A stretch of 64,000 nucleotides of DNA from Desulfuromonas sp. AOP6 (GTDB taxonomy: Bacteria; Desulfobacterota; Desulfuromonadia; Desulfuromonadales; SZUA-540). The DNA lies in contig NZ_AP022810.1 of the NCBI RefSeq assembly GCF_009731355.2, positions 1,144,001 through 1,208,000 of the forward strand, given 5' to 3'. The notes beneath the pieces were generated by a model, which was given only the letters and a program-made list of their open reading frames with translations, did not search any database and had not been told where the DNA came from. Positions 10,587 through 59,856 of the stretch are shown here, one piece after another. The first letter of the stretch is position 1, and every line of letters starts with the position of its first letter. A program made the position numbers and the translations under genes.

Positions 10587-10604
10587 ACCACCGAGGAGAA
10601 AAAC

Positions 10605-11138: not shown

Positions 11139-11147
11139 AAGGGTCGG

Positions 11148-11252: not shown

Positions 11253-11285
11253 GAAATAAAGGACACTTCCCAGATTTCCGGCTGG

Positions 11286-11384
11286 CGCACGCAGAGCAAG
11301 GTTATGCTCTGCAAAGAGATAGCGCAAGTTCGCGGGATTCACTACACCACGGTCCGCAAGGTGTTCAACGGGAATAAGAACTGA
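11286..11384 (+). pseudogene. Tail of a REP/IS200-type (Y1) transposase
   Basis: An open frame without a start reads RTQSKVMLCKEIAQVRGIHY, then TTVRKVFNGNKN and a stop. It looks like the C-terminal helix-turn-helix of REP-associated Y1 transposases, which are commonly found with dispersed hairpin repeats like those around it. Only 32 codons survive. Confidence 0.45.
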
Positions 11385-11469
11385 TACTTCAAGACCTGAC
11401 CTATTTGCTTTTGCTTGGCTACCCTTAAATGGTTGATGACATAGCGCTCATGCGGCGTAAAATGCTGCT

Positions 11470-11543
11470 AGGACATGATGGGTTCCTTTCCGGTGTATTG
11501 GTTGCTCGCACTTCCAACAATACCAGAAACCCCATCATGTCCT
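11470..11543. repeat. Large imperfect inverted repeat
   Basis: AGGACATGATGGG starting at 11470 is complemented by CCCATCATGTCCT ending at 11543, and the pairing continues inward (TATTGGTTG against CAACAATACC) around a ~10-base loop. The right arm is also the left part of repeat R2 copy 2. It resembles the end palindrome of a small mobile element. Confidence 0.7.
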
Positions 11544-11591
11544 GCTTTTTAGCCCGCGGTGCGGGTGGTGCACTTACGAGGTGAATCTACC
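11515..11591. repeat. 77-bp repeat R2, copy 2
   Basis: Near-identical to 4554-4630. Here it directly precedes the glutamine amidotransferase gene. Confidence 0.8.
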
Positions 11592-11612
11592 TACAAGGAA
11601 ACAGGATTCAAA

Positions 11613-12323: not shown

Positions 12324-12402
12324 AATGTCTTGACTTATAGTCGGCCTTTTAATGGGTGACCCCAGGGCACCGTACTTCCCGTTCCATTGGTCATGGTTGG
12401 CT

Positions 12403-12600
12403 TTAAAGATGGTCGGAGAGTTCATCCACTTTACGCTGCGCTTCCTTTTCGCTTAAGTTGTATTTCTCCTGAAGCTTTCCGACGAGCCGTTCGCGCTGAC
12501 CATCGATAAAGTCGATATCATTACCACTGAGCTCCCCCCATAGTCCTTTGAGCAGTCCTCTCAGCTGATGCCACCGGGCTTTGAATTCCTTGTTATCCAT
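12403..12600 (-). CDS. CsbD-like stress protein
   Basis: A 65-residue hydrophilic protein with the CsbD pattern: KEFKARWHQLRGLLKGLWG, then DIDFIDGQRERLVGKLQEKY and a C-terminal helix. An in-frame ATG lies 12 bases upstream, but GAGGG at proper distance favours the start at 12600. CsbD proteins are abundant general-stress proteins of unknown mechanism. It lies downstream of three transporter genes on the same strand. Confidence 0.85.
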   Translation of the reverse strand: MDNKEFKARWHQLRGLLKGLWGELSGNDIDFIDGQRERLVGKLQEKYNLSEKEAQRKVDELSDHL

Positions 12601-12746
12601 GGTTTCCCTCATTCCTCTCGAAAATTGGTCATGCCAAGTTCTCTTCCTATTTCATTCTATCGGATAGTTCGGGGAAGCCAATCAGTTACACTTTGATTTG
12701 CGTCCTGTCTTTGGCCTTAAGCGGGCCCTATCGATGTAAAATGAGT

Positions 12747-44213: not shown

Positions 44214-46175
44214 CTATTCCTTTTGGGGGAGTTTCACACGGAAAAGGCTGCCTTCCCCTTCCCGGCTTTCTACTTCGATTTTGCCCCCCATGCTTTGTAC
44301 GATACCGTAGGCAGTAGATAGTCCCAGCCCGGTGCCGTGTTTTTTACTGGTAAAAAACGGATTGAAAATCGCACTGCGAATATTCTCCGGTATGCCAGGT
44401 CCCGTATCCTGTACGGTCACTTCCATAGCATTATTCTCCAGTCGTGTTTCCAAAGTCAGGACACCCGCGCCAGCCATGGCCTGCAGGGCATTGAGCAGCA
44501 GGTTGGTAAAAACCTGACGCAATCTCTCCTCGTCCGTTATCAGCGGCGGCAAATCAGCGCCAAATCTACGCACGATCTCAATCGTTCCCAAGGTGACCTG
44601 ATGGCTGACCTGGGCAACAATTTCGTCAAGCAGTCTGTTGACATCGACAGGCCGGGGATGAATGGCCTGCTCACGGGCGAAGGTGAGCATGTTCTGGGTG
44701 ATGCGGGAAATCCGTTCGGTCTGTTTCAGGATTTCTTCCGCCTCTTCCCGTCCTTCGGTGCCTGCCGGCAACTCCATCAGCAGAATTTCGACGTTGCCCC
44801 GGATGATGGCGGCGGGGTTGTTGATTTCATGGGCAACGCCGGCGGCCAGGGAGCCTACGGCGGCCAGTTTTTCGCTACGCAGCAGCTCGTCCCGTGTGCT
44901 GATCAGTTCGCGGTTTCTTTCTTCGAGCTGGCTGGTCCGTTCACGGACCTTCACTTCCAGTTGCTGATTCAGAATATTCAACTGGGTTTCCCTCTCATGG
45001 AGAGCGGCCGCCATGTGATTGAAGGTGCGGGTGAGGTGGCCTATTTCGTCACGGCTGGTAGCCGGCAACTGCAGGTGTTTTTCTCCTTCGGCCACCCGTT
45101 GGGCCATGGTGTCAAGAGCCAGGATGGGCCGACTCAGGTGGCGTGAAATTTCGCGGGCCAGCAGATAACCGAGACCGCTGCCGAGAAGCAGGAGGCCGAA
45201 CAGGATGGCCGCCACCCTCGCTTTAAGGGCCATGAAAGGTTTTTCCAGCAGACCGACGTACAGAGCGCCGATGGGTTGTCCGTCGATATCCAGAATGGGT
45301 TCATAGGCGGTCAGGTACCATTCGTCGATGACGCGGGCTCGTCCCAGCCAACTCTGCTTTTCCACCAGCACCGCCTTGGCCACCTGCGGCGAAACCTGGG
45401 TTCCCAGGGCGCGACTGCCGTCATCCAGGCGTATCGTGGTGGCGATGCGCCGATCATCCAGAAAGATGGTGGCGCTGCCGCGTTCTATCCCGTTAAACTT
45501 TTCCTCGCCGTAAATGATCCTTTGGATTTCGTCCACCAGGCTCAGGTGTTTGTTGAGCAATTTTCCTCCATAGAGAAACCCCAGAACATTGCCACTCTTG
45601 TCTCTGACGGGCGCCACGCTGATCAGAAACAACCCTCTGGTTTCAAAGGCATCAGACGGTTTCTCGCCGTCGATGAGGGCGAGACGGGCTTTACGTGCGA
45701 GACCAGGGGAGAGCGTCTGCATCTGCTCAGCACTGAGAAGGGCTGTGCCGGCAAAGCTCCCCTGATAAAGCGATTTTTTCATGAATTTTGAAAAGACCTC
45801 GCTCTGCTGACCGGGGTGCTGGGTCTGGCCCAGAGGATCGCTGATGCCGAGGATGTCCAGCTGTTCCCGCCGTTCAATGGCCTCCAGCTCGTCGAGCAGT
45901 TGTGTTCGCTGACCCTGGCTCAGTGAACGGGAGGTGGCTTCGGAGTGGGCCGTGAAGCGAACGACATCGCGGATGCGTTCGAGCTCGCGCAGGTAGACGG
46001 CCCGGGCCGAATCCATTTCATTCTGAACCCGTTTCTGGGTATCGCCGACGATATAGGCATTGATGAGATAAACGATGGCGACGGTGACCAGTATCAAAAC
46101 GACGATCAATGGGGCCAGCGCCGCCAGAGTCAGTTTGCCACGAATGGAGAGCGGGCGGGGGAAGGGCTGGCTCAT
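44214..46175 (-). CDS. Membrane sensor histidine kinase (NtrB-like partner of the sigma-54 activator)
   Basis: A 653-residue kinase. TM1 at ~15-38, a ~280-residue periplasmic single-Cache sensor domain ([37 protein letters not shown]), TM2 at ~325-345, HAMP, a coiled coil, HisKA with [13 protein letters not shown] (phospho-acceptor His), and an ATPase domain with N, G1 ([10 protein letters not shown]) and G2 ([12 protein letters not shown]) boxes. The ATG overlaps the upstream regulator's stop by four bases (ATGA), so kinase and regulator are one operon. The periplasmic Cache domain suggests sensing of a small organic acid, and formate is a plausible ligand given the divergent formate dehydrogenase; this is inference. 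Confidence 0.9.
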
Positions 46176-47554
46176 GGGGTGTCAGCCTCTTCCGGTGTCG
46201 GCAGATCGAATTCCTTGATTTTGCGGTCGAGAGTTTTTCTGGTGATGCCCAAAAGCAGGGCCGCCTGACTCTTATTGCCCCCGGTTTTCTTCATAGCCCG
46301 GTTGATCTGACGCCGTTCCGCCTCTCGCAGGCTCAGAGGCATATCGGTCGTGTCGGCTACAGAGGCAGGCGCTTGCGTGGCGCTGAGTCGGATAGGCAGC
46401 AGGTCGATCGTGATCTCATTGTCGAGGGCAAGAATGGCTGCCCGCTCGATGACGTTCTGCAACTCGCGGATGTTGCCGGGCCAGTGATAGTTCTGCAGAA
46501 CTTCCAGCGCCTCGGGGGCAATGCCCTGGAGGTTTTTTTTCATCTTCTGAACCATTCTGTCGAGAAAGTGCCGGGCCAGCGGGATAATATCCTCACGCCG
46601 CTCCCGCAACGGCGGGAGATGCAGACAGATGACGTTGAGGCGGTAATAGAGGTCTTCACGAAAGCGCCCTTCGGCCACCTCTTTTTCCAGATCCTTGTTG
46701 GTGACAGCAATGAAGCGCACATCGACCTTCTTGGGTCGGGTGGCGCCGACGGGAATAAACTCGCCCTCCTGAATGACGCGCAGCAGCTTGGCCTGCAGGC
46801 CGGGGCTGATATCGCCCACTTCGTCCAGAAAGAGGGTGCCGCCATCCGCTTCCTCCAGAAAGCCCTTCTGGGACTGCAGGGCCCCGGTGAAGGAGCCTTT
46901 GACGTGGCCGAAGAGCTGGCTTTCGAGCAGGGTTTCCGACAGGGCGGCGCAGTTGATGGCCAGAAAGCGGTTACCGGCGCGGGGACTGGCGTAGTGGATG
47001 GTACCGGCAATGAGTTCTTTACCGGTGCCGCTTTCACCCAGTACCAGAATGTTGGCATCGCTGGCGGCCACACGCAACGCCAGTTCGTAGACCTGCCGGA
47101 ATTTATCGCTCACGAAGATGGGTTTTCCCGGCGTGTGGCGTTCCTGCAGTTCTTTTTTGAGGGACAGGTTCTCTTCCCGCAGTTTTTCGCGCTCCATGGC
47201 GTGAATGAGCAGGGTCTGCAGCTTTTCCTGGGGAAAAGGCTTGCTCAGATAGTCATAGGCGCCAATCTTCATGGCTTCGACCGCCGAGTCAATGGTGCCG
47301 TGACCCGTCATCATGATGACGGGCAATTCGGGGCGTAGACTCCGGATGCGGGTCAGTGCTTCAATACCATCCATCTCGGGCATTTTCACGTCAAGCAGGA
47401 CGAGATCACATTCCGAATCGGGCTGCCCCAGAAACTTCAGCATCAGCACGGGATCGGCAAAAGTTTCTGTCTCGTAACCCCAGCCCGTCAGCATTTTGCT
47501 CAGGTAGCGGCGCATGCCGTCTTCGTCATCTGCCACGATGATTCTTTTAGCCAT
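46172..47554 (-). CDS. NtrC-family sigma-54-dependent response regulator
   Basis: A 460-residue activator: receiver domain (phospho-acceptor Asp55 in VLLDVKMPEMDG), AAA+ domain with Walker A GESGTGKE (173-180), the sigma-54-contacting loop as GSFTGA (220-225, where GAFTGA is most common), Walker B GGTLFLDEVGD, and a Fis-type helix-turn-helix near the C-terminus (NKSQAALLLGITRKTLDRKI). It is transcribed away from fdnG; the intervening 334 bases hold a dyad GGGTCGATATGACCC and a near-perfect sigma-54 promoter facing fdnG. The most economical reading is that this protein, phosphorylated by the downstream kinase, activates fdnG and fdhD-mobA. Confidence 0.92.
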   Translation of the reverse strand: MAKRIIVADDEDGMRRYLSKMLTGWGYETETFADPVLMLKFLGQPDSECDLVLLDVKMPEMDGIEALTRIRSLRPELPVIMMTGHGTIDSAVEAMKIGAYDYLSKPFPQEKLQTLLIHAMEREKLREENLSLKKELQERHTPGKPIFVSDKFRQVYELALRVAASDANILVLGESGTGKELIAGTIHYASPRAGNRFLAINCAALSETLLESQLFGHVKGSFTGALQSQKGFLEEADGGTLFLDEVGDISPGLQAKLLRVIQEGEFIPVGATRPKKVDVRFIAVTNKDLEKEVAEGRFREDLYYRLNVICLHLPPLRERREDIIPLARHFLDRMVQKMKKNLQGIAPEALEVLQNYHWPGNIRELQNVIERAAILALDNEITIDLLPIRLSATQAPASVADTTDMPLSLREAERRQINRAMKKTGGNKSQAALLLGITRKTLDRKIKEFDLPTPEEADTP

Positions 47555-47673
47555 GATTTCTCCCGGAAGGTTTTAAGGATTTTTATAATAAGCACAAATT
47601 ATTCCAGATGGGAAGAGGCTTGGCCAGGGTGCGGTCCGGTCTCTGCGCGAGGAGTATTCGCGCGCTCGTCGTT

Positions 47674-47688
47674 GGGTCGATATGACCC
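47674..47688 (+). promoter_or_regulatory. Putative upstream activator site of the fdn operon
   Basis: GGGTCGATATGACCC: 5-bp arms around 5 bases, extending imperfectly on both sides (GTT/GAC). A half-site ATGACCC follows at 47702-47708. It lies 122 bases before the -24 element, a normal distance for an NtrC-type enhancer. The same dyad recurs before fdhD-mobA. Confidence 0.6.
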
Positions 47689-47809
47689 GACAAGAGAAAA
47701 AATGACCCACCTGGATCTCTTCATTTCTGGAGGTAAAGGAGAGGTCGATATTGGGCGCAGGCAGTTTCCATGCGGACTGAAGAGGAACAATCTGAGGGGT
47801 ATACCCCAT

Positions 47810-47825
47810 TGGCACGGAGGTTGCC
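47810..47825 (+). promoter_or_regulatory. Sigma-54 promoter of the formate dehydrogenase operon
   Basis: TGGCACGGAGGTTGCC matches the consensus TGGCACG-N4-TTGCW except for the last base; GG and GC are separated by exactly 10 bases. Transcription would start near 47836, ~53 bases before the fdnG ATG. Confidence 0.88.
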
Positions 47826-47888
47826 AATGGCAGGAGAGATCCACGTGACCACGTATCGGTCGTTGTATACCATTCAAGGAGAGAGTGC

Positions 47889-50800
47889 ATGGGTGTTACA
47901 AGAAGAAGTTTTCTCAAGGGAAGCGGCTTGGCTGCCGCGGGCCTGGCTGTTTCGGGAAAGCCTGCTCGTGCCGGGGTGGACAGCCCCGAGCTGCGCACGA
48001 AGGGCCTGCAGACCTCGACCACCGTCTGCCCGTACTGCGCGGTCGGTTGCGGTATGATCGTTCACACCAAAAACGGTAAGGTTGTCAACATTGAAGGGGA
48101 TCCGGAACATCCCATCAATCAAGGCGCGCTTTGTTCCAAGGGGAGCGCCCTCTTTCAGGTGGCCAACAACGAACGCCGGCTGACCAAGGTGCAGTACCGC
48201 GCTCCCGGCAGCGACCGTTGGGAGGAGAAATCCTGGGACTGGGCAATGAATCGTATTGCCGAGCTGATGAAGGATTCCCGCGACCGCCACTTCGTGAAAG
48301 CGGAGAAGCGTAACGGCAAGGAATATGTCGTCAACCGCAATGAGGGCATGGCCTTTTTAGGCGCCGCCGCTCTCGACAATGAAGAGTGCTACCTCTGGGG
48401 CAAGTTCGCCCGCGCCATGGGGGTCAGTTACCTGGAACACCAGGCCCGAATATGACACAGCGCCACGGTTGCCGGTCTGGCAGCCTCCTTTGGCCGCGGT
48501 GCCATGACCAATCATTGGAACGACATCCAGCACGCGGACGTCATCCTCTGTATTGGCTCCAACCCCGCTGAAAATCACCCGATTTCTTTTAAATACGTCG
48601 AAAAGGCGATGGATAATGGCGCGACTCTCATCAGCGTCGATCCCCGCTATACCCGGACCTCCTCCAAGGCCGATATTTATGCCCAGCTGCGTCCTGGCAC
48701 CGATATCGCCTTTATGGGAGGTCTGATCAACCACGTGTTGCAGAACGACCTGATCCAGAAGGATTACGTCGTGCAGTACACCAACGCTTCCTTCATCGTC
48801 GATGACGCCTTCGATTTCAACGAGGGTATCTTCAGCGGCTACAACGCTGAAACCTTCAGTTACGAGAAGGACAGCTGGAAATACAGGACCGACAAGGACG
48901 GCAACGCCCTGCGCGACCATACCCTGCAGGATCCCCGTTGTGTCTATCAGCTGATGAAGAAACACTATACCCGCTATACTCCGGCCATGGTCTGCGAGAT
49001 CACGGGGACGGCCATTCAGGACTATATGGCGGTAGCCCGTACCTTCTGCGCTACCGGGCGGCCCGACAAGGCCGCCACTATCATGTACGCCATGGGAACC
49101 ACCCAGCATACCTACGGCACCCAGAACGTGCGCTCCTACGCCATGCTGCAGCTGTTGCTCGGCAACGTCGGCATCGCCGGCGGCGGCATCAATGCCTTGC
49201 GTGGTGAATCCAACGTGCAGGGGTCGACGGACTACGCCATCCTGTACCACATTCTGCCGGGTTATCTGAAAGTGCCCGACTTCAACCATGTCGACTACGC
49301 GACCTATCTCGACAAGGTCACCCCGAAGAGCAGCGACCCCAACAGCGCCAACTGGTGGAGCAATACGCCCAAATACATGACCAGCCTGCTCAAGGCTTAC
49401 TGGGGTGAGCATGCCACGGCGAAAAATGACTTCTGCTACGACTATCTGCCGAAGAAGAGCGACAACTACTCTTTTATCATGCTCATGGATCGTCTGCAGG
49501 CGGGCGGTTTTGATGGGCTCTTCTGTATGGGGACGAACCCCATCGTCGGCGGACCCGATACCAACGCCATCTCCAGCGGTCTGGATCAGCTCAAGTGGCT
49601 GGTCGCCGCTGATCTTTGGGAGACGGAGACGTCTATTTTCTGGAAACGTCCCGGCGTCGATCCCAAGAAAATCGACACCGAAGTCTTTCTGCTGCCGGCC
49701 GCTTCCAGTGTCGAGAAACAGGGGAGCATCTCCAACTCGGGGCGCTGGGCTCAGTGGCGCTACAAGGCGGTCGATCCTCCCGGTGAGGCGGAAAGTGACG
49801 CCTTTATCGTCGACCAGATGTTCAAGCGCCTCAAGGCTCTTTACGAAAAGGGTGGGGTATTTCCCGAACCCATCGTCAATCTGGCCTGGAACTATGGCGA
49901 CGGCCACGAGCCGGATATCGACATGGTCGCCAGGGAGTGCAACGGCCAGTTCACCCGCGACGTGGAGATCAAAGGCAAGCTCTACAAGAAGGGGCAGCAG
50001 GTGCCCAGCTTCGCCTTCCTGCAGGATGACGGTTCCACCCTCAGCGGCAACTGGCTCTACTGCGGATCTTTCACCGAGGCAGGCAACATGATGCAGCGCC
50101 GGGGGCTGGAAGATCCTACCGGTCTGGAAATGTATCACAACTGGGCCTGGTGCTGGCCGGTCAACCGTCGCATTCTCTACAATCGCGCCTCCGTTGACCT
50201 GGATGGCAGGCCGCTCAATCCGAAAAAAACGGTTATCGCCTGGAACGCTCTCACCCGCAAATGGGAAGGGGATGTCCCTGACGGCGGCTGGGCCCCCATG
50301 AATGAGGATGGTACGAAAAATCCTTTTATCATGATCCCGGAAGGCTATGGCCGTCTTTTCGCCGCCGGCCTGGCGGATGGCCCCTTGCCTGAGCACTATG
50401 AGCCCATGGAGAGTCCTGTTTCCAACATGATGAGTCCGCAGCAGTGCAATCCGGCTGTCGCTATCCCGGCCAAGCTCAGCAACGTCGACAAGTTCCCCTA
50501 TGTCGGTACCACCTACCGGGTATCCGAACACTGGCAGGCCGGGGCCATGACCCGTAACCTGCCCTGGCTGGTCGAGCTGGTCCCGGATATGTTCGTGGAA
50601 ATCAGCGAGCAGCTGGCGGACTGGAAAGGGCTCAAGAACGGGGACGTTGTGACCGTCTCCTCCGAGCGTGGCAGCATTCAGGCCAAGGCGTTGGTGACTT
50701 CGCGCATCAAGCCGCTGCGCGTCAGTGGTCGTCTCATCGAGCAGGTCGGTCTGCCCTGGCATTTCGGTTTCGGCGGTATGGCCCGGGGGGACAGCGCCAA

Positions 50801-50894
50801 TGTGTTGACGACGGCGGTGGGTTGCGCCAACACCACCATCCCCGAGTACAAGGCCTTTTTGTGCAACATTGAGAAAGGGGGGAGGGCGGCATGA
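47889..50894 (+). CDS. fdnG: Formate dehydrogenase catalytic subunit, selenocysteine-containing, Tat-exported
   Basis: A 1001-residue protein if the in-frame TGA at 48453-48455 is read as selenocysteine (residue 189). The flanks, EHQARI before and HSATVAGLAASFGRGAMTNH after, match the Sec site of FdnG-type enzymes, and a GGTCT-loop hairpin follows. The N-terminus carries a twin-arginine signal (TRRSFLKG). The [4Fe-4S] ligands are CPYCAVGCGMIV and a later GALCSKG; GSNPAENHP and the C-terminal molybdopterin-dinucleotide-binding domain follow. It oxidises formate at a Mo- or W-bis-pterin site in the periplasm. AAGGAG precedes the ATG. The stop overlaps fdnH by four bases. An annotation pipeline would probably split this gene at the TGA. 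Confidence 0.95.
48453..48485 (+). promoter_or_regulatory. Selenocysteine codon and bacterial SECIS hairpin
   Basis: TGA at 48453-48455. GGTTGCC (48467-48473) pairs with GGCAGCC (48479-48485), one G-T wobble, closing a five-base loop GGTCT (48474-48478) that starts 18 bases after the TGA. GGUCU is the SelB-recognised loop of Escherichia coli fdh SECIS elements. Confidence 0.88.
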
Positions 50895-51733
50895 GTTCGC
50901 GCACCGATTTTTCCCAGGATAAAGCTTTTTTGATCGATATGACCAAGTGCACCGGCTGCCGTGGTTGTCAGGTGGCCTGCAAGCAGTGGAACCAGCTGGA
51001 GGCGGAGGAGACGTCTTTTTTCAGCGGCGAGGGCTATCAGAACCCGCCCGCCATGTCGGAAAAGACCCTGACCCGCATCAAGTTCCGCGACTACCAGAAG
51101 AACGGACAGAACGAGTTCGCCTTCTACAAAGAGATGTGCATGCACTGCAACGAGCCGGCCTGCGCCTCCGTCTGCCCTGTCGGCGCCTTCGTGAAGACGA
51201 CGGAAGGACCTGTCGTTTACAAGGCCGATCGCTGCATCGGCTGCCGCTTCTGCATGATCGCCTGTCCCTTTGGCATTCCCAAGTACGAGTGGAGCAAGGC
51301 CTTTCCGTTGGTGAAGAAATGCACCGGCTGCTACAGCCGCGTCAGAGAAGGGTTGAAGCCCGCCTGCGCCACGGCCTGCCCGACGGCCATTACCTATGGT
51401 CCGCGCAAAGAGATGATCAAGGAGGCCGAAAGGCGTCTGACCGAGCATCCGCAGCGCTACATCCACAAGGTCTACGGTAAGGATGAGGCGGGGGGCACCA
51501 GCGTCATCTACCTGACGAGCCTGCCCTTTGATGAACTCGGCTTCAAGCCGGTCACCATGCGGTCACTGCCCGGTTATACCTGGCAGGCCCTGCGTCTGGT
51601 GCCGGCGGCTTTCCTCGCCGTGGGTGGCGGCTTGTCGGCTATTTCCTGGATCAACCACCGTAAAGAACGTCTGCGGAAAGAACGGGAGGAGGCCGCGACG
51701 GCTCTGACTTCTTCCGAGCACAAGGAGGATTAA
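50891..51733 (+). CDS. fdnH: Formate dehydrogenase iron-sulfur subunit
   Basis: A 280-residue ferredoxin-like subunit with four CxxCxxC/CxxCxxxC clusters: CTGCRGCQVACKQWN, CMHCNEPACASVCPVGAF, CIGCRFCMIACPFGIP and CTGCYSRVREGLKPACATAC. A single C-terminal membrane segment (LVPAAFLAVGGGLSAISWI, ~235-255) anchors it, as in FdnH. It has no Tat signal of its own, so it would be co-exported with FdnG. It relays electrons from FdnG to the membrane subunit. It overlaps fdnG by ATGA; the next gene starts 4 bases after its stop. Confidence 0.93.
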   Translation: MSSRTDFSQDKAFLIDMTKCTGCRGCQVACKQWNQLEAEETSFFSGEGYQNPPAMSEKTLTRIKFRDYQKNGQNEFAFYKEMCMHCNEPACASVCPVGAFVKTTEGPVVYKADRCIGCRFCMIACPFGIPKYEWSKAFPLVKKCTGCYSRVREGLKPACATACPTAITYGPRKEMIKEAERRLTEHPQRYIHKVYGKDEAGGTSVIYLTSLPFDELGFKPVTMRSLPGYTWQALRLVPAAFLAVGGGLSAISWINHRKERLRKEREEAATALTSSEHKED

Positions 51734-51737
51734 AGCG

Positions 51738-52958
51738 ATGACTGCCGCCAGATATGTTGTCAATGAAATCAAGGGCTACCACCTGTTTGTCAAGTTTCTC
51801 ATCGCCCTGGTGGTTATCGCCGCCCTCGCTTCAATGGTCCGTTTCGTCTTCGGGCTGGGCGCCACTACCAATCTTGATGATACCTACCCTTGGGGTCTGT
51901 GGATCAGCTTCGACGTCGTCACCGCCGTGCCGCTGGCCGCCGGTGCTTTTACCCTGGGTGCCATCGTCCACTGCTTCAATATCAAGAAGCTGGAGCCGCT
52001 GGTGCGTCCGGCCATCGTCACCGGTTTTCTCGGCTATTCGCTCGTCTGTATCGGTCTGCTGCTCGACCTTGGCCAGCCCCACAAAGGCTGGCACGTGCTG
52101 CGCTACTGGAATCTGCACTCGCCCATGTTCGAAGTGTCCATGTGCGTCATGGCCTACACGACCGTACTCTTTCTCGAATTCCTTTCGCCCGTAGCGGAGA
52201 AGTTCGGCTGGCATGTGCCCCTGCGGGTGTTGCGTTGGCTGGAAATGCCCCTGGTCATTCTGGCTGCGGCCATCTCCACCTTGCACCAGAGCTCTCTCGG
52301 CACCTTCTTTCTTATCGCCGTCGACAAGTTGCACAACCTCTGGTACAACCCGCTGCTGCCGCTGCTTTTCTGGGTGAGCGCCATCTCTACTGGCATGGCC
52401 ATCATCATCCTGGAAGCCACGGCCAGTCACAAGTGGATGGGACAGCCCAACGAAGGAGTGCTGTTGCGCACGCTGGCCCAGATTCTCCCCTGGGCCCTTG
52501 GCTTCTATATTGCCCTGCGGATCTACAGTCTGCTGGCACTTTCGGAGGGGCCTTTCTTCGACCGACCCGGACTTACCCTCTCTTTCGTTCTGGAGTTCGG
52601 TGTTGGTTTCATTCTGCCTTTCATCCTCTTGACCCTGAAGTCGGTCAGGGAAAATGATCGCAGCCGGGCCATTGCCGCCGGCCTGGTCATCTTCGGCCTG
52701 GTGCTCAACCGCTTCAACGTTTCGATGATCGGCATGATGGACCCCAACAATATCTACCTCCCGTCCATCATCGAGACCCTGGTCACCCTGGGTATCATCG
52801 CGGCGCATATCCTGTTTTTTGTGCTCATCGCCAAATATTTTCCGATCTTTGAGCACCATCCGGAAACGGTTGACTATTCTCTGCCGGATACTTTCCGCCG
52901 TATCGACAGCGCCAAACCGGAGGTGCCTGGCGAGACCGTTTCCTCATCTGGAAACTGA
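51738..52958 (+). CDS. NrfD/HybB-type membrane subunit of the formate dehydrogenase
   Basis: A 406-residue integral membrane protein with about ten helices, of the NrfD/PsrC/HybB superfamily (TYPWGLWISFDVVTAVPLAA, LVCIGLLLDLGQPHKGWHVL, LNRFNVSMIGM). It replaces the small cytochrome b (FdnI) of the Escherichia coli enzyme; the superfamily binds quinone and has no heme. In this context it should pass electrons from the iron-sulfur subunit to menaquinone. Located 4 bases after the preceding stop and followed by a strong hairpin, so it closes the operon. Confidence 0.9.
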   Translation: MTAARYVVNEIKGYHLFVKFLIALVVIAALASMVRFVFGLGATTNLDDTYPWGLWISFDVVTAVPLAAGAFTLGAIVHCFNIKKLEPLVRPAIVTGFLGYSLVCIGLLLDLGQPHKGWHVLRYWNLHSPMFEVSMCVMAYTTVLFLEFLSPVAEKFGWHVPLRVLRWLEMPLVILAAAISTLHQSSLGTFFLIAVDKLHNLWYNPLLPLLFWVSAISTGMAIIILEATASHKWMGQPNEGVLLRTLAQILPWALGFYIALRIYSLLALSEGPFFDRPGLTLSFVLEFGVGFILPFILLTLKSVRENDRSRAIAAGLVIFGLVLNRFNVSMIGMMDPNNIYLPSIIETLVTLGIIAAHILFFVLIAKYFPIFEHHPETVDYSLPDTFRRIDSAKPEVPGETVSSSGN

Positions 52959-52983
52959 AGTACGTTATTTAGAAAACATTGCA

Positions 52984-53025
52984 AACGAACAAGGCCCGCA
53001 GTTGACAGTGCGGGCCTTGTTCGTT
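52984..53025 (+). terminator. Terminator hairpin of the fdn operon
   Basis: A perfect 17-bp stem, AACGAACAAGGCCCGCA (52984-53000) with its complement at 53009-53025, around an 8-base loop. The U-tract is poor, but the A-T end pairs and the stem length favour termination. Confidence 0.85.
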
Positions 53026-53127
53026 CCGGGAAAGACTGCAATCATTGAAAAGAAGCAGGCAAAGTATTCCTGTCAAAGATTTGGGTAATGACCATAATAT
53101 CGCCGTCGGGATTGGCGTCATATGGGC

Positions 53128-53161
53128 GGGTCATAATAACCCATATGGGTCACCATGACCC
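53128..53161 (+). promoter_or_regulatory. Tandem putative activator sites before fdhD-mobA
   Basis: GGGTCATAATAACCC (53128-53142, one arm base off) and GGGTCACCATGACCC (53147-53161, perfect 5-bp arms), centres 19 bp apart. They are the same dyad as at 47674-47688, located 45 bases before a sigma-54-like element. Confidence 0.6.
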
Positions 53162-53204
53162 GCCCTCTGGCTGGGAAAAAAGCCTTTTGACGGCGTTCAA
53201 GGGT

Positions 53205-53220
53205 CGGCATGTTTTCTGCT
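53205..53220 (+). promoter_or_regulatory. Candidate sigma-54 promoter of fdhD-mobA
   Basis: CGGCATGTTTTCTGCT keeps GG and GC exactly 10 bases apart and 9 of the 12 specified consensus bases. Start of transcription would be near 53231, 43 bases before the ATG. Confidence 0.6.
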
Positions 53221-53273: not shown

Positions 53274-54701
53274 ATGGAGCAGGGGATCATCACGCGGGTG
53301 AATAAAGGGGAGGTCAGCCTCAGCGAGCGTGCCGTCGTGCAGGAATTTCCCCTGCGACTGACGGTCAATGGGCGTGAACTGGCCACCCTGATTGCCTCGC
53401 CTCATCAACTCAACTATCTTGTGGCCGGTTTCTTCCGTCTGCAGGGAATGGTCACCACCCTCGACGATATTCTCAGCCTGGGTATATGCAGTGATTTCGG
53501 CGCCGCTCGGGTGCAGCTGCGTCAGGATATTCCCCTCGATCTCAGGCCCGTGCTGACCTCCGGTTGCGGAACGGGGATTACCTTCGATTTTCCCGTTGAG
53601 ATCGCCGAGGCTTCGTCAGCCGTTATTCGAGGCGGGAGGACATTCACGCCCGAAGCGGTTTTATCTCTCATGCGTCAGTTGCAGCACCACGCTGAAGGTT
53701 ATCGTCGCCATGGCGGCATGCATTCGGCCGCAGTGGGCGATGGTGAGAAGATGCTCCTCTATGCCGAGGATATCGGCCGCCACAACACCCTCGATCGCAT
53801 CGCCGGCGAAGCCCTTTTCAAGGGGGTCGAGCTGTCAGGTAAGCTGCTGGTTACTTCCGGGAGGGTGTCCACCGAGATGGTGGCGAAGGCGGCCCGCCTT
53901 GGTATCGTCGCCATCGCCTCACGCACCTCGCCCACCGACATGGCCGTGCGTTTGAGCGAGCAGGTCGGCATCTGCCTCATCGGCTATGTGCGTGGTGAAA
54001 CGATGGAGATTTACAGCCAGGCCCGTCGCATGCGTCTCCAGAGTGGTGAACAGCGCCTCGCTGGCGTCACCGGAGTTATCCTGGCCGGTGGGGAAAGCCG
54101 CCGCATGGGGAGTGACAAGTCGCTGCTTCCTATCGATGGTGCCCGCTTTATCGATCATATCTACCGGCGTCTGACCCTCCTCTTCGATGAAGTGATTATC
54201 GTCACCAACTCGCCCGACCTCTACGCCGACATTCCCTGCCGCAAGGTTCCCGATCTTTATCGCGCCCAGGGCTCCCTGGCCGGCATTCATTCAGGCCTGC
54301 AGCATGCAAGCCACCAGCGCATTTTCGTGGTGGCCTGCGACATGCCTCTCGTCTCCCCGGCTGTGGTCCGGCGCCTTTGTCTTGCTGACAGGTCGGGAGA
54401 TGTCGTCATCCCTTGCGGAGAGCACGGCTTCGAGCCGCTCCACGCCGTCTATGGCAAGGGCTGCCTGCCCGCCATGGAAAAGACGCTGGCCCGAGGGGAG
54501 CGACGTATTGTAGCCTTTTTTGAGGAGGTGAGGGTCGCCCAGGTGCCGCTGACGGATTTTGCCGAACTCGATCCGCAGGGACTCTCCTTCCGCAACATCA
54601 ACACCCCGCAGGAATATTTCCACTTGCGGGAAAAGCAGGTCTCGGGGAATACTGCGAACCAGGTGGATGCGACCAGCATCCGCATGGGGCAGAAAGGATA
54701 A
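53274..54701 (+). CDS. FdhD-MobA fusion: formate dehydrogenase sulfurtransferase and molybdopterin guanylyltransferase
   Basis: A 475-residue bifunctional protein. Residues 1-~265 are FdhD (RLTVNGRELATLIASPHQLN, HGGMHSAAV, YAEDIGRHNTLDRIAGEAL, TSGRVSTEMVAKAARLGIVA), which carries sulfur to the cofactor of formate dehydrogenase. The active-site region reads TSGCGTG with one cysteine instead of the CxxC of the Escherichia coli protein. Residues ~275-475 are MobA: GVILAGGESRRMGSDKSLLP (GTP site) and VACDMPLVSP. MobA attaches GMP to molybdopterin. The start is set at 53274 by GGGGAGAT; the frame is open 62 codons further upstream but crosses the predicted promoter. It lies directly after the fdn operon and before the riboswitch. 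Confidence 0.92.
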   Translation: MEQGIITRVNKGEVSLSERAVVQEFPLRLTVNGRELATLIASPHQLNYLVAGFFRLQGMVTTLDDILSLGICSDFGAARVQLRQDIPLDLRPVLTSGCGTGITFDFPVEIAEASSAVIRGGRTFTPEAVLSLMRQLQHHAEGYRRHGGMHSAAVGDGEKMLLYAEDIGRHNTLDRIAGEALFKGVELSGKLLVTSGRVSTEMVAKAARLGIVAIASRTSPTDMAVRLSEQVGICLIGYVRGETMEIYSQARRMRLQSGEQRLAGVTGVILAGGESRRMGSDKSLLPIDGARFIDHIYRRLTLLFDEVIIVTNSPDLYADIPCRKVPDLYRAQGSLAGIHSGLQHASHQRIFVVACDMPLVSPAVVRRLCLADRSGDVVIPCGEHGFEPLHAVYGKGCLPAMEKTLARGERRIVAFFEEVRVAQVPLTDFAELDPQGLSFRNINTPQEYFHLREKQVSGNTANQVDATSIRMGQKG

Positions 54702-54942: not shown

Positions 54943-55752
54943 ATGAGGATCTGGAAATTTTGTCTGTTGTCTGTTGTCTGTTTTTTGCTGCTGGGCGCTG
55001 GCCCGGCCTTGTCGCTGGAACATTTGCGTCTCGCCACCACGACCTCGACGGAGAACTCCGGATTGCTGCGGGCCTTGTTGCCCCCCTTCGAACAGGCACA
55101 TACCTGCCAGGTCGACGTGATTGCCGTCGGCACCGGCAAGGCCCTCAAACTGGGCGAGGCGGGGGATGTTGATGTGGTGCTGGTGCATGCCCGTGCCCTC
55201 GAAGAAGCCTTCATCGCCGCCGGCCACGGGATCGACCGCCGGGACGTTATGTACAACGACTTCGTTCTGCTCGGCCCCCCCGCCGATCCCGCCGGTATCG
55301 CCGGCATGGGCGATGTCGCCGCGGCGATGGAAAAAATTGCCGCCTCGGATAGTACCTTTGTTTCCCGCGGGGACAAATCCGGCACGCATCACAAGGAACT
55401 CGAACTCTGGCAGGCGGCCGGTCTTACCCCTGCCGGCAAGGGCTACGTCGAGGCCGGGCTCGGCATGGGTGAGGTCATCAATATGGCCACGGAGCTGCAG
55501 GGGTATACGCTGGCGGATCGGGGCACCTATGTGGCCTATCGCAGCAAGACGGACCTGGAAATCCTGGTGGAAGGGGACGAGCGCCTGTTTAATCCCTATG
55601 GGGTGATCGCCGTCAATCCGCAGAAGCACCCGCATGTCAAAATCGACCTGGCGACCGCTTTCATGGATTACCTGGTGTCTCCCCAGGGACAAGAGATCAT
55701 CGCCGACTACAGCAAGAACGGCGAGCCTCTTTTCTTTATTTACGCAAAGTAG
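54943..55752 (+). CDS. tupA: Tungstate ABC transporter substrate-binding protein
   Basis: A 269-residue periplasmic binding protein. Signal peptide LLSVVCFLLLGAGPALS is followed by the TupA signature ATTTSTENSGLLRALLPPFE; later SRGDKSGTHHKELELW and YTLADRGTYVAY complete the oxyanion-binding protein fold. TupA proteins bind tungstate with higher preference than molybdate. First gene of a nine-gene plus-strand operon, translated from an ATG with CGGAG upstream after the riboswitch-terminator leader. Confidence 0.9.
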   Translation: MRIWKFCLLSVVCFLLLGAGPALSLEHLRLATTTSTENSGLLRALLPPFEQAHTCQVDVIAVGTGKALKLGEAGDVDVVLVHARALEEAFIAAGHGIDRRDVMYNDFVLLGPPADPAGIAGMGDVAAAMEKIAASDSTFVSRGDKSGTHHKELELWQAAGLTPAGKGYVEAGLGMGEVINMATELQGYTLADRGTYVAYRSKTDLEILVEGDERLFNPYGVIAVNPQKHPHVKIDLATAFMDYLVSPQGQEIIADYSKNGEPLFFIYAK

Positions 55753-55758
55753 ACGTTC

Positions 55759-56445
55759 TTGGACTTTATTTTCATCTCCCTGCAGAAAGCCCTGGCCCTG
55801 ATTCTGGCCTTTGACGGCGAAGTTTTCATCACGGTATGGACCTCGCTCTATACGTCCCTGGTCGCTATCGTGCTGGCCGCGATCGTGGCCATTCCCTTTG
55901 GCGCCCTGGTCGGGATCAGCCGCTTCCGGGGGCGGGGACTGGTACTGACCCTGCTCAATACCCTCATGGCCCTGCCGACGGTGGTGGTTGGCCTGGTACT
56001 CTACGGCTTTCTCAGCCGCCAGGGGCCCCTGGGGGAGTGGGGTCTGCTCTTTACCCCGGCTGCCATGATTCTCGGTCAGATGGTGCTGGCGACACCCATT
56101 GTGGCCAACTACACCCTGGCCGCCGTGGTGGGGGCTGATTCCCGCATTCTGAGCACGGCCCTCACCTTGGGGGCGGGCAGGTTGCGGGGCGTTTGGATGC
56201 TGCTGCGGGAAGTGCGTTTTGGCGTCATGGCGGCAGTTATCGCCGGGTTCGGCCGGGTCATCGCCGAGGTGGGCGTGGCCATGATGCTTGGCGGCAATAT
56301 TCGCCATCATACCCGCACCATGACCACGGCCATCGCCCTAGAAACGAGTAAGGGGGAGTTTGCTTTCGGACTGGCTCTTGGCTTGATTCTGCTCGGGGTG
56401 GCGCTTTTCGTCAACCTGGCCATGCATGTTCTGCAACAGAGGTGA
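55759..56445 (+). CDS. tupB: Tungstate ABC transporter permease
   Basis: A 228-residue inner-membrane permease with five to six helices and the EAA-type loop (ADSRILSTALTLGAGRLRGV, FGRVIAEVGVAMMLGGNIRH). The length and order fit TupB. The first codon is TTG, 6 bases after the tupA stop, with no clear ribosome-binding site; coupling to tupA translation is likely. A later start would cut into the first helix. Confidence 0.88.
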   Translation: MDFIFISLQKALALILAFDGEVFITVWTSLYTSLVAIVLAAIVAIPFGALVGISRFRGRGLVLTLLNTLMALPTVVVGLVLYGFLSRQGPLGEWGLLFTPAAMILGQMVLATPIVANYTLAAVVGADSRILSTALTLGAGRLRGVWMLLREVRFGVMAAVIAGFGRVIAEVGVAMMLGGNIRHHTRTMTTAIALETSKGEFAFGLALGLILLGVALFVNLAMHVLQQR

Positions 56446-56448
56446 CCT

Positions 56449-57138
56449 ATGCAACCGATTCTTTCCCTGGAATATATCCAGGTCTCCGTGGGGACAGCCT
56501 TTCGCCTGGAAATCGACACCTTGGCTATTGAAGCGGGGGGGCTGTACTGTTTGACTGGCCCGAACGGTGCCGGCAAGACAACCCTGCTGCGCCTGTTGGC
56601 TCTGCTGAGTCCCCCGGCGCGCGGCATCCTGCGGTTCGACGGCAGAGCCGTAGTCTATCGCGGCGGCATGGCGGCGGCCAACCTGCGTCGCGAGGTGACT
56701 TTGGTCCAGCAGGCGCCCTATCTTTTCCAAGGGAGCGTCTACGACAATATGGCGTTCGGTCTGGACTTGCGGAAAATAGCCTCTGCCCAGCGGCCCGTCC
56801 GCATTGCAGCAGCGCTTGAATCGGTTGGGCTGGCGGGATTTGCCCAGCGCTCTGCCAGGGAACTTTCCGGCGGGGAGATCCAGCGGGTGGCTTTGGCCCG
56901 CGCTTTGGTGCTGCAGCCCAGGGTGCTGCTTCTCGATGAGCCGCTCGCCAATATCGATGTGGGGCACCTGGGCCAGTTCGAGAAACGGCTCCGGGATCTC
57001 TGCACGGAACAGGGTATGACCATCGTCATGTCCACTCACGACCCAGGCCAGCCCGAACGGCTTGGCAGTAAAGTCATTGCACTGGACAGGGGCCGGCTGA
57101 CCAGTGAGGTATCCTGTCCGCTGAAGAGGGCGATGTGA
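56449..57138 (+). CDS. tupC: Tungstate ABC transporter ATP-binding protein
   Basis: A 229-residue ATPase: Walker A TGPNGAGKTTLLRLL, Q-loop VQQAPYLFQ, signature ELSGGEIQRVALARAL, Walker B VLLLDEPLANID and the H-loop MSTHD. It energises TupAB. The ATG lies 3 bases after the tupB stop with AGAGGTG upstream; moeA follows after 13 bases. Confidence 0.92.
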   Translation: MQPILSLEYIQVSVGTAFRLEIDTLAIEAGGLYCLTGPNGAGKTTLLRLLALLSPPARGILRFDGRAVVYRGGMAAANLRREVTLVQQAPYLFQGSVYDNMAFGLDLRKIASAQRPVRIAAALESVGLAGFAQRSARELSGGEIQRVALARALVLQPRVLLLDEPLANIDVGHLGQFEKRLRDLCTEQGMTIVMSTHDPGQPERLGSKVIALDRGRLTSEVSCPLKRAM

Positions 57139-57151
57139 AGGAGTCTCAAAA

Positions 57152-58345
57152 ATGGTGATAAGTTTCGACGAAGCCCGACAGGTCATTCTGGACCAGGCTC
57201 GGCCTCTTGGCAGGGAACGTGTTTCCCTCACTGAGGCCTGCGGGCGGGTGCTGGCCGAGGACATGCGTGCCCCCTGGGATCTGCCGGCCTGGGACAATTC
57301 GGCCATGGACGGATTCGCTGTGCGCTCTCAGGATTGCCAGGCCGCTGCGACTCTCCAGATCAGTGGCTATATCCCCGCCGGCGCCCAGACCCACGACAGG
57401 GTGGAGGAGGGCTGCGCCATCCGCATCATGACCGGCGCGCCCCTGCCGGCCGGAGCGGACGCGGTGGTGCCCGTGGAAGAGGTTGCCGAGGCAGATGGCA
57501 CCCTCACCCTGACGGCCAGGGTTGATCCGGGGCAACATATCCGTCGCCAAGGGGAGGATGTCGCCCGAGGCGAGCCTTTTATGCCCGCCGGTAGTCGCCT
57601 GCGTCCGGACGGCATCAATCTGCTGGCCTCTTTCGGACAGGCCTTCGTGCCCGTATTCCGGCGTCCACGGGTAGCTATCCTCTCCACGGGAGACGAGCTG
57701 GTGGAACTCGGCGAAACTCCGGCGCCGGGACAGATCATCAACAGCAATTCCCTGTCGCTGGCTGCCGCCGTTCGCGAATCAGGCGGCGAACCGTTGTTGC
57801 TGGGGATCGCCCGAGATGAGGTGGACTGTCTGCGCGCGAAGCTTGCGGAAGGATTGAAGGCCGATATCCTCATTACCTCGGCCGGCGTGTCGGCCGGGGA
57901 CAGGGACCTGGTGCGCGAGGTGCTCGCAGACCTCGGTGTGCGCGAACTCTTTTGGAAGGTGGCCATAAAACCGGGGCATCCCACCGCCTTTGGGGTCAAG
58001 GACGACTGCCTGGTTTTCTCGTTGCCGGGCAACCCCGTTTCCACTCTGATGACCTTTGAGTTTCTGGTGAAGCCGGCCCTGGGGCGTATATGCGGCGGTG
58101 TGGACGCAACAAAACCAAGCGTCCGGGCCGTTTTGCGGGAGTCGACCAAAAAAAAGAAGGGGCGACTGCAATTCATGCGGGTCGCCCTGACGCAGGAGGG
58201 GGATGTCCTCTACGCTACCAGCGCCGGGAATCAGCATACGGGGATGGTTTCCACCATGGTTCGAGCCGAAGGGATCGCTGTTCTGCCGGCCGACGCCGAC
58301 CGCGCTGAAGCGGGAACCCTGGTGGAGGTTCATCTTCTGGGCTAG
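57152..58345 (+). CDS. moeA: Molybdopterin molybdenumtransferase MoeA
   Basis: A 397-residue protein with all MoeA domains: WDNSAMDGFAV near residue 50, GAPLPAGADAVVPVEE, AILSTGDELVELGETPAPGQ (MogA-like domain), SAGVSAGDRDLVREVL and FSLPGNPVSTLMTFEFLVKP. It inserts molybdate or tungstate into adenylylated pyranopterin. GGAG precedes the ATG. Its position right after tupABC links metal import to insertion; archaeal-type and delta-proteobacterial operons of this kind often serve tungsten enzymes. Confidence 0.95.
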   Translation: MVISFDEARQVILDQARPLGRERVSLTEACGRVLAEDMRAPWDLPAWDNSAMDGFAVRSQDCQAAATLQISGYIPAGAQTHDRVEEGCAIRIMTGAPLPAGADAVVPVEEVAEADGTLTLTARVDPGQHIRRQGEDVARGEPFMPAGSRLRPDGINLLASFGQAFVPVFRRPRVAILSTGDELVELGETPAPGQIINSNSLSLAAAVRESGGEPLLLGIARDEVDCLRAKLAEGLKADILITSAGVSAGDRDLVREVLADLGVRELFWKVAIKPGHPTAFGVKDDCLVFSLPGNPVSTLMTFEFLVKPALGRICGGVDATKPSVRAVLRESTKKKKGRLQFMRVALTQEGDVLYATSAGNQHTGMVSTMVRAEGIAVLPADADRAEAGTLVEVHLLG

Positions 58346-58390
58346 TTTAGCTACCACTGAAAAGACGCGGTACGAAAAGGATAGATCTGC

Positions 58391-59368
58391 ATGAAACTTT
58401 TTGACGGCTTCCACCGCAAAGTCAATTATCTGCGCTTGTCGGTGACCGATCGCTGCAATTTGCGCTGCCGATACTGTATGCCGGCGGCGGGCGTCTCCAA
58501 ACTCGGCCACAACGATATCCTCAGCTACGAGGCGCTCCAGTGTGTGTCACGGGCGGCCGTGTCTTTGGGTATCGAGAAGATTCGTATCACCGGTGGCGAA
58601 CCGCTGGTGCGCAAAGGGCTCCTCCCCTTTCTGCATGAGCTCTCGGCCCTGCCGGGCCTTAAAGAACTGGTGCTGACGACCAATGGCACCCTGTTGCCTG
58701 AGCTGGCTACCGAATTGAAGGCCGCCGGGGTAAAACGGGTGAATATCAGCCTCGATTCTCTGCAGCCCGACCGTTTTCGCCGTATCACGCGCGGCGGCGA
58801 CCTGGCTCGGGTGCTGGCGGGAATCGCCGCCGCCGAGGCTGCTGGAATCGCCGTCAAGCTCAATATGGTGGTCATGCGGGGCATCAATGACGACGAAGTG
58901 GTGGATTTCGCGGCCATGGCGCACGGCAAAGCGTTGAGCGTCCGTTTTATCGAATACATGCCCAATATTCAGGACGCCGGCTGGCAGGCGCAGATCGTGC
59001 GCGGTCAGGAGATTCTGGAGCGCATCGGGAAAAAATTTTCCTATCAGGAGCTGAGGCGCGGCACTCTCTGTGGGCCGTCCCGCGACTACCACCTTGAGGG
59101 CGCCAGCGGCAGCATCGGCATCATCACCCCGGTTTCCAACCATTTCTGCGACAGTTGCAACCGTATCCGGGTGACCGCGACCGGGCTGGCGCGTAGCTGC
59201 CTTTTTTCCGGCGAAGCCGTCAACCTGCGCCCTGTTCTGCTGGGAGGTGATGTCCAGGCCGTGCAGCAGGTCCTGCTTGATATCGTCAAGGACAAGGTTT
59301 CCGGACATCGTCTCGATGATGAAAAAGAGCGCGGTCCGGCCTTCTGCATGTCTTCTATCGGCGGCTAG
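58391..59368 (+). CDS. moaA: GTP 3',8-cyclase MoaA
   Basis: A 325-residue radical-SAM enzyme. The N-terminal cluster motif is CNLRCRYC (Cys22, 26, 29); the C-terminal cluster ligands are in FCDSCNRIRVTATGLARSC; ITGGEPLVRKG is the SAM-binding GGE motif; the protein ends in Gly-Gly as required for activity in studied homologues. It makes 3',8-cyclo-GTP from GTP, the first step of cofactor synthesis, with MoaC (same operon) taking the second. Confidence 0.95.
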   Translation: MKLFDGFHRKVNYLRLSVTDRCNLRCRYCMPAAGVSKLGHNDILSYEALQCVSRAAVSLGIEKIRITGGEPLVRKGLLPFLHELSALPGLKELVLTTNGTLLPELATELKAAGVKRVNISLDSLQPDRFRRITRGGDLARVLAGIAAAEAAGIAVKLNMVVMRGINDDEVVDFAAMAHGKALSVRFIEYMPNIQDAGWQAQIVRGQEILERIGKKFSYQELRRGTLCGPSRDYHLEGASGSIGIITPVSNHFCDSCNRIRVTATGLARSCLFSGEAVNLRPVLLGGDVQAVQQVLLDIVKDKVSGHRLDDEKERGPAFCMSSIGG

Positions 59369-59400
59369 AAGGCGCTTCATTCACACGAGGAGTAAAACCC

Positions 59401-59856
59401 ATGGAACCATCGGTGGTAGCGGTCTGTATCAGTGAAAACAAAGGCGAACAGAAAAAGCCGGTTGACGTAGCCCTTCTCAAGGAAAACCATGGTATTGTCG
59501 GCGATGCCCATGTCGGTGACTGGGACAGGCAGGTCAGCCTGCTGGCCGAAGAGAGTATCGACACCATGCGGGCTAAAGGCTTGAGTCTGGGCTCTGGTGA
59601 CTTTGCCGAAAACATCGTTACCCGGGGAGTCGCCTTGACGGCCCTTCCCATTGGCAGCCGCCTGACCCTGGGCGAGGCGCTACTGGAGATCACGCGTATC
59701 GGCAAGGAATGCCACAGCCGCTGCGCCATCTACTACCAGGCCGGAGACTGCGTCATGCCGCGGGAAGGCATCTTCGCCCGCGTTCTCAAGGGCGGAGTCG
59801 TACGGGCTGGCGACCGCATTCAACTGCAAGCGGGCGGTCGCGAATCTTCCAACTGA
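59401..59856 (+). CDS. Stand-alone MOSC domain protein
   Basis: A 151-residue protein consisting of one MOSC domain. Visible are GIVGDAHVGDWDRQVSLLAE near the start, FAENIVTRGVALTALPIGSR, and GKECHSRCAIYYQAGDCVMP, where the first cysteine of CHSRC corresponds to the conserved MOSC cysteine. MOSC proteins carry sulfur or bind the Mo/W cofactor; here it may carry or protect the cofactor for formate dehydrogenase. Located 32 bases after moaA with GAGGAG upstream. Confidence 0.9.
   Translation: MEPSVVAVCISENKGEQKKPVDVALLKENHGIVGDAHVGDWDRQVSLLAEESIDTMRAKGLSLGSGDFAENIVTRGVALTALPIGSRLTLGEALLEITRIGKECHSRCAIYYQAGDCVMPREGIFARVLKGGVVRAGDRIQLQAGGRESSN

Follow-up and report, generated by a model that had tools for sequence, protein, structure and literature searches.

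A probable two-component sigma-54 regulon for formate dehydrogenase, with formate as its most likely signal, in Desulfuromonas sp. AOP6

The formate dehydrogenase locus

We analyzed a stretch of 64,000 nucleotides (hereafter, the window; positions 1144001-1208000) of the single-contig 3.27 Mb genome of Desulfuromonas sp. AOP6 (G000), in which the genes of a selenocysteine-containing formate dehydrogenase lie between a divergently transcribed gene pair, encoding a sensor kinase and an NtrC-type response regulator, and a fdhD-mobA fusion gene. Together with the inverted-repeat sites (dyads) and sigma-54 (-24/-12) promoter elements found upstream of fdnG and of fdhD-mobA, these genes probably constitute a formate dehydrogenase regulon that a two-component system controls through sigma-54 promoters, with formate as the likeliest signal. 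The features of the locus are as follows.

44214..46175, minus strand: sensor histidine kinase with two periplasmic Cache modules (module 2 is sCache_3_3), HAMP, HisKA and HATPase_c (Pfam, AlphaFold2 and PDB matches)
46172..47554, minus strand: NtrC-type response regulator, the proposed dyad binder, with receiver, sigma-54 AAA+ and Fis-type helix-turn-helix (HTH) domains (Pfam, orthologues and HTH comparison)
47673..47689, unstranded: dyad 1, 5' of fdnG, TGGGTCGATATGACCCG; centre 142 bp from the -12
47693..47709, unstranded: weaker second site with one strong half, 8.5 bits; 122 bp to the -12
47810..47824, plus strand: sigma-54 (-24/-12) element of fdnG, TGGCACGGAGGTTGC; 10/10 core matches
47889..50894, plus strand: fdnG, catalytic subunit of formate dehydrogenase; the in-frame TGA codon 189 is interpreted as selenocysteine
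50891..51733, plus strand: fdnH-like iron-sulfur subunit (Pfam)
51738..52958, plus strand: NrfD-type membrane subunit (Pfam)
53127..53143, unstranded: dyad 2, 5' of fdhD-mobA, CGGGTCATAATAACCCA; 83 bp to the -12
53146..53162, unstranded: dyad 3, 5' of fdhD-mobA, TGGGTCACCATGACCCG; 64 bp to the -12
53205..53219, plus strand: sigma-54 (-24/-12) element of fdhD-mobA, CGGCATGTTTTCTGC; 7/10 core matches, GG and GC intact
53274..54701, plus strand: fdhD-mobA fusion gene; start chosen by us (Pfam and alignments of relatives)

An earlier note on this DNA had placed dyads of the form GGGTC-N5-GACCC at 47674, 53128 and 53147, sigma-54 elements at 47810 and 53205, and an NtrC-type activator gene with its kinase gene divergent from fdnG. 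All these dyads and elements were recovered, the repeat being perfect at 47674-47688 and 53147-53161 and carrying one mismatch at 53128-53142, and the divergent arrangement is borne out by gene coordinates, strands and Pfam domains. The weaker site at 47693-47709 lies 20 bp 3' of dyad 1, which is the position of a second dyad in many relatives. In both promoters, the sequence contains the GG of the -24 and the GC of the -12 region at the fixed spacing, preceded by upstream enhancer dyads. The fdhD-mobA element, given its incomplete core and its absence from the output of a consensus scan allowing two mismatches, is weak if taken alone; its 15 bases are identical in the sibling genome G002.

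The kinase gene overlaps the 3' end of the regulator gene (44214-46175 and 46172-47554, respectively), and the regulator falls into the NtrC-type class, with PF00072, PF00158 and PF02954 all above the cut-offs. The listed open reading frame of fdhD-mobA starts at 53088, 5' of the dyads; we preferred 53274, which is preceded by GGGGAG, the alignments of relatives mostly starting at residues 1-10.

Conservation of the dyads and promoters

By simple counting, the dyad is unremarkable. With up to two mismatches, the window contains 41 copies against 46.27 expected; exact copies number 8 in the whole genome compared with 6 for the reversed control; and two additional exact copies, at 6936 and 33789, are located inside long open frames, away from promoters. 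As statistics, these numbers speak against a special role of the dyads, so that the claim must rest on placement and conservation, and held-out matrix scoring was used in place of counting. A palindromic matrix with the consensus TGGGTcat.atgACCCA was trained on 24 fdnG upstream regions, excluding the genus of the window; the search was seeded with the dyad of the earlier note and hence did not start blind, whereas the scoring of left-out families was blind. With this matrix, no other site in the window scores as high as the fdnG dyad (20.2 bits) and the two dyads of fdhD (17.2 and 14.5 bits); these 3 sites of at least 14 bits compare with a mean of 0.375 in 40 random sequences of equal dinucleotide make-up. 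The dyads of the sibling genome score 20.2, 17.7 and 17.3 bits with the matrix from other genera. Two degenerate patterns were rejected: TGKRTM-N5-KAYMCA misses the dyads of the window itself, where one of the outer bases is C or G, and YGGRTM-N5-KAYCCR occurs at 14 places in the genome of the window against 7 for the control, and at 8 against 9 in the sibling.

The comparison covered 24 regions 5' of fdnG genes of the window type (type A; measured identities 76-89%), drawn from 23 other genomes with a regulator of this family, and 16 regions beside the same regulator family that precede a second type of fdnG (about 51-59% identical). The controls were 5 type-A fdnG regions from four genomes with no regulator (G005, G012, G013 twice, G019) and 3 second-type regions with no adjacent regulator, one of which, from G135 (L219), was included even though a type-A regulator is encoded elsewhere in that genome. 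Because the control assemblies are partly incomplete (G012 59%, G073 70%, G005 86%; 59-100% for the no-regulator assemblies overall), “without regulator” means that none was detected. Duplicates of genomes that bear G handles (L067, L068, L069, L071, L088, L095), a contig that stops before the promoter (L158), startless fdnG fragments (G001, G007 and the second copy in G124) and regulator loci with no adjacent fdnG were excluded from the counts. L153, the contig of which ends just past the start codon, with fdnG itself unseen, was counted; L153 and L154 were excised by hand. The fdnG of G048 was counted as “with regulator”, its regulators being of the second type or more distant.

A -24/-12 element with at least 8 of the 10 core matches is present in all 24 type-A fdnG regions from regulator-bearing genomes, and an intact one is found in 0 of the 5 from genomes with no regulator match; for the second type, the corresponding numbers are 15 of 16 regions beside the regulator versus 0 of 3 with no adjacent regulator. 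The earlier note had proposed conservation of the dyads before fdnG, in genomes that keep the activator, as a check on its claim, and this conservation held: 23 of the 24 type-A regions pass leave-one-family-out scoring at p<0.05, and the fdnG regions from genomes with no detected regulator have neither dyads nor an intact sigma-54 element, the matrix scores in all 8 control regions staying at or below 5.5 bits. Among the second-type regions, 14 of 16 reach p 0.005 (the lowest value possible with 200 shuffles), another has p 0.0498, and one yields none. The centres of the paired sites are mostly 140-145 and 121-124 bp from the GC of the -12 region (farther, 171 and 150 bp, in G026). In four genomes (G043, G044, G046, G047), no regulator gene shares the promoter region of fdnG, and the type-A regulator and kinase are encoded on another contig or at least 17 kb away; fdnG is nevertheless preceded by the dyads, mostly at the distances just given, and by the sigma-54 element. 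In G043, G044 and G046, a second-type regulator gene belongs to the neighbouring cluster, and either regulator may act there.

Several observations detract from this pattern. The sole region to miss in leave-one-family-out scoring is that of Desulfogranum (L070; p 0.236), which is also the only one from outside the order, and L170 has neither a dyad nor a sigma-54 element. Both G013 copies (L214, L215) contain TGGCAC 84 bp before fdnG, the usual distance, with the GC of the -12 region broken, and the absence of the element from this control may represent a decayed sigma-54 promoter.

Some fdnG regions also contain, as judged by eye, an inverted repeat TGTTTT...AAAACA between the dyads and the promoter, and CCGTAAAC directly 5' of the -24 region (L150, L151, L160, L168 and others); by the same inspection, neither was seen in the fdnG promoter of the window.

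Upstream of fdhD, conservation is more limited, and the earlier claim stood only in part. Among the 26 other loci in which the region 5' of fdhD could be read, 6 (G002, G043, G044, G046, G103, G104) combine a dyad of 11.4-18.8 bits with a sigma-54 element that has 7 or 8 matches and precedes the start by 60-85 bp. In the other 20, four of which come from regulator-free genomes, the dyad is absent, the best site scoring no more than 4.8 bits; two of these dyad-free loci, L159 and L221, also contain sigma-54 words with 7 of 10 matches. In the 14 type-A loci with no fdhD element, fdhD is located 41-245 bp 3' of nrfD, and hence might be reached by read-through; at fdhD loci with no element of their own, read-through is the only way in which co-regulation could arise.

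What the sequences show directly is that the sites and promoters exist, that they are conserved and that they co-occur with the regulator; the link between the regulator, the dyads and the promoters that this suggests is very likely genuine. The formate regulon that the earlier note had derived from the dyads is supported by this comparative evidence, with binding and activation as its predictions.

The probable signal and the DNA-binding protein

In the mechanism that we propose, the periplasmic Cache region of the membrane kinase would sense formate, and the kinase would phosphorylate the NtrC-type regulator. The regulator, in turn, would bind paired dyads of the form TGGGTC-N5-GACCCA (in a looser rendering, TGKRTM-N5-KAYMCA), about two helical turns apart and 5' of the -24/-12 promoters, and activate the divergent fdnG operon, which encodes the selenocysteine enzyme, as well as, from the second promoter, fdhD-mobA. 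The product of the latter would sulfurate and complete the molybdenum or tungsten cofactor of formate dehydrogenase, this being the role of FdhD and MobA.

The earlier note had claimed a single periplasmic signal, and homology of the sensor allows us to name formate as the putative ligand. The sCache_3_3 domain of the kinase is recognized by PF17202 with 106.6 bits against a cut-off of 28.8. AlphaFold2 modelling of the N-terminal part of the kinase (residues 1-331; mean pLDDT 83.7, 9 sequences) gives two Cache-like modules, at about residues 108-206 and 211-310, of which the sCache_3_3 module is predicted to be membrane-proximal. Over residues 202-311, the sequence matches 8py0 (E 5.3e-08) and 8py1 (E 3e-05), both chemoreceptor domains “in complex with formate”, and in structure comparison, module 2 aligns with 8py1 at Z 16.6 (rmsd 1.5 over 126) and with 8py0 at Z 16.0 (rmsd 2.0 over 151). 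Residues R243, T246 and T259 align with the R/T/T residues of both domains, are invariant in the 9-sequence alignment, and have the same spacing (+3, +16) as R142, T145 and T158 of PacF, which, according to a passage in PMC12501870 that cites another paper, affect formate binding; according to PMC12415202, formate is bound by an sCache_3_3 domain in which the reported residues are present. The window kinase resembles 8py0, 8py1 and PacF in that its Cache module is of the same type and has R/T/T at the corresponding positions; in those proteins, however, the module belongs to a chemotaxis receptor, whereas here a histidine kinase carries it, and the model places it nearer the membrane than a second module.

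Other comparisons make formate less certain. Foldseek places LuxQ above the formate domains, which take ranks 2-4, and a modelled McpB chain (Z 15.9) ties with 8py0 and 8py1 in the second structure comparison. The R/T/T pattern is common among the sCache_3_3 domains of the order (some rows were read by eye), so that it marks the domain family more than the window kinase; the only other sCache_3_3 match in the genome of the window (L252, 33.6 bits) has no such pattern. In Atu0526, a related formate receptor, a change of the conserved arginine abolished chemotaxis but raised formate affinity, as described in the text of PMC8698456. Given that the pattern is common in the order and that the conserved arginine of Atu0526 is dispensable for binding, formate is likely, not proven; we consider it somewhat more probable than not as the ligand of the window kinase.

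The most serious alternative is that the regulon is real and the signal is not formate, being instead another small carboxylate, or that the distal Cache module is the one at work. The distal module resembles the citrate-binding domains of CitA (Z 14.8), which makes another ligand possible, and the R/T/T pattern is family-wide. Furthermore, a second-type locus (L179) combines a quite different sensor with the same kind of DNA site: behind the regulator gene are genes for a Peripla_BP_6 protein (10324-11604) and a kinase (11601-13565) with a long sensor region that has no Cache match, so that, as far as can be read from these genes, sites of this kind are here served by another type of input. 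Conversely, at E <0.1 the sensor region has no PDB sequence matches other than the two formate complexes, and the target genes encode formate dehydrogenase and its maturation factor. We therefore regard a signal other than formate as unlikely, albeit worth keeping in mind.

Turning to the predicted DNA-binding protein, we found matches to the regulator (E up to 1e-140) in 40 of the 136 genomes of the order, that of the window included; its closest named relatives are Desulfuromonadales such as Malonomonas rubra, plus one Desulfogranum. In most type-A loci with enough contig, the regulator gene is opposite fdnG, which is followed by fdhD-mobA and, in many cases, tup-like genes, and in most type-A loci, except where contigs end early, a kinase match follows the regulator. 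The GAFTGA loop is characteristic of NtrC-type sigma-54 activators; in the window regulator (46172-47554), this sigma-54 contact loop reads GSFTGA, a one-residue variant, and a second-type relative has GAFTGA. The recognition helix TRKTLDRKI, or a close variant, is kept among these regulators, G103 excepted, and differs from that of paralogues at 41-48% identity. Two findings run counter to a simple match of helix and site: a similar helix also occurs in 51-56% identical relatives that adjoin other genes, and the regulator of G103 (L168:128-1489; 62% identical overall) has a strongly divergent C-terminal HTH in a genome that keeps the dyads before both fdnG and fdhD (an assembly of 640 contigs).

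Type-A regulator and kinase genes are also found, as judged by eye, next to a TusA/YedF-like gene and not fdnG in five loci of one family (L161, L164, L165, L169, L174). In viral contigs, one distant relative was detected.

Outside the window, we examined 16 stretches of the same genome, comprising 12 further YGGRTM-N5-KAYCCR places and 4 from earlier pattern scans. Only one of these, G000:212288, has both a strong site, the best extra site of the genome (21.4 bits), and a sigma-54 element of at least 8, with 122 bp between the site and the -12 region. The downstream gene (G000:C1:212288-212672; L240, L283) encodes a 60-residue ribbon-helix-helix-like protein (Pfam matches below the cut-off) with relatives in 75 of the 136 genomes. 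All 30 orthologue regions that were scanned have its sigma-54 element, including 17 from genomes with no detected regulator, and the site was at first put aside as a target because the element is also there when the regulator is not. A site with p<0.05, usually about 120 bp from the -12 region, is found in 12 of the 13 regions with the regulator versus 2 of the 17 without it, where G001, an incomplete assembly with a type-A-like kinase, was counted among the latter; the two groups are different families, and many sites have other half-sites, which weakens the case for a third target. This small gene is a candidate third target of the window regulator or, alternatively, a target of a related activator. 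Another of the examined stretches, G000:352043 (18.8 bits), was rejected: it has no sigma-54 element and, by eye, looks like a Fur box, located beside a Fur-like gene.

These observations bear on whether the dyads might belong to another protein, either a different sigma-54 activator or a redox regulator, and merely adjoin the activator gene. Another activator may indeed read related sites, given the small gene's element in the 17 regulator-free regions, and the similar helix in more distant regulators points the same way. However, the fairly fixed distance between dyads and sigma-54 elements, and the absence of dyads from 5 type-A and 2 second-type fdnG regions of genomes with no regulator match, render a foreign binder quite improbable. 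Chance occurrence of short G+C-rich palindromes near ordinary sigma-54 promoters, with which the simple counts would agree, deserves hardly any credence because it is already contradicted by the held-out and leave-one-family-out scoring and by the similar placement across families.

Comparison with known systems and the wider locus

In anoxic habitats, formate plays an important part in carrying electrons from one species to another. Control of its metabolism by a sigma-54 activator has a precedent in FhlA of Escherichia coli, which is formate-responsive, senses formate itself and is not a two-component regulator. As in the FhlA regulon, a sigma-54 activator would make formate-metabolising genes respond to formate; the window protein is not of the FhlA type, however: apart from its receiver domain, no sensor domain reaches the cut-off, and it is paired with a membrane kinase.

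A described counterpart of the locus is GSU0777-GSU0781 of Geobacter sulfurreducens, where, according to the text of PMC2725144, fdnG and FdhD belong to one operon, an activator gene lies upstream, and the promoter of fdnG (GSU0777) was found to be RpoN-dependent by primer extension. That account, as far as the portion available to us goes, gives no binding site or signal; we liken the two loci by description and do not assume orthology of the activators. Compared with growth on acetate, FdnG was 38.8-fold up with hydrogen and FdnH 25.9-fold up with formate, as given in PMC7894505, in which FdhD/MobA (GSU0780) is listed as undetected. Sigma-54 regulons of Desulfovibrio vulgaris (PMC4641369) were likewise predicted comparatively from activator sites and -24/-12 elements, and include regulators of pyruvate formate-lyase; “fdn” is absent from the main text of that paper, and this likeness, too, is one of description and not of site sequences. 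In the parts of the open-access literature on regulators and fdn that were searched, we found no description of the dyad site or of its regulator. Thus, as far as these sources go, prior knowledge of formate dehydrogenase control in this group stops at the RpoN dependence and the upstream activator gene of G. sulfurreducens (PMC2725144), whereas the present locus allows a regulator to be named together with its DNA site, targets and probable ligand. One signal would tie synthesis of the enzyme to completion of its cofactor, an unusually complete predicted chain from signal to cofactor in a regulon that is well supported by comparative evidence, and a possible formate-sensing switch is on offer.

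A broader reading, to which we give an even chance as a whole, is that a two-component system for periplasmic formate sensing, with its own DNA code of paired TGGGTC-N5-GACCCA dyads, extends across the Desulfuromonadales, with the small ribbon-helix-helix-like gene as a possible third target. The output half, that is, the regulator family, the site and the sigma-54 promoters of fdnG and sometimes of fdhD-mobA, would be kept, and the input half would be exchanged, between a formate-type Cache kinase and a periplasmic binding protein with a different kinase, according to the kind of formate dehydrogenase.

3' of fdhD-mobA, the window encodes a PBP_like_2 protein, transporter proteins, which we take to be tup-like, MoeA, a protein that we take to be MoaA-like, and a MOSC protein. 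Before the genes in 54943-59856, no matrix site of at least 12 bits was found. In this interval, tungstate-transporter-like genes, moeA, the moaA-like gene and the MOSC gene adjoin fdhD-mobA, which suggests that metal and cofactor supply are grouped with formate dehydrogenase.

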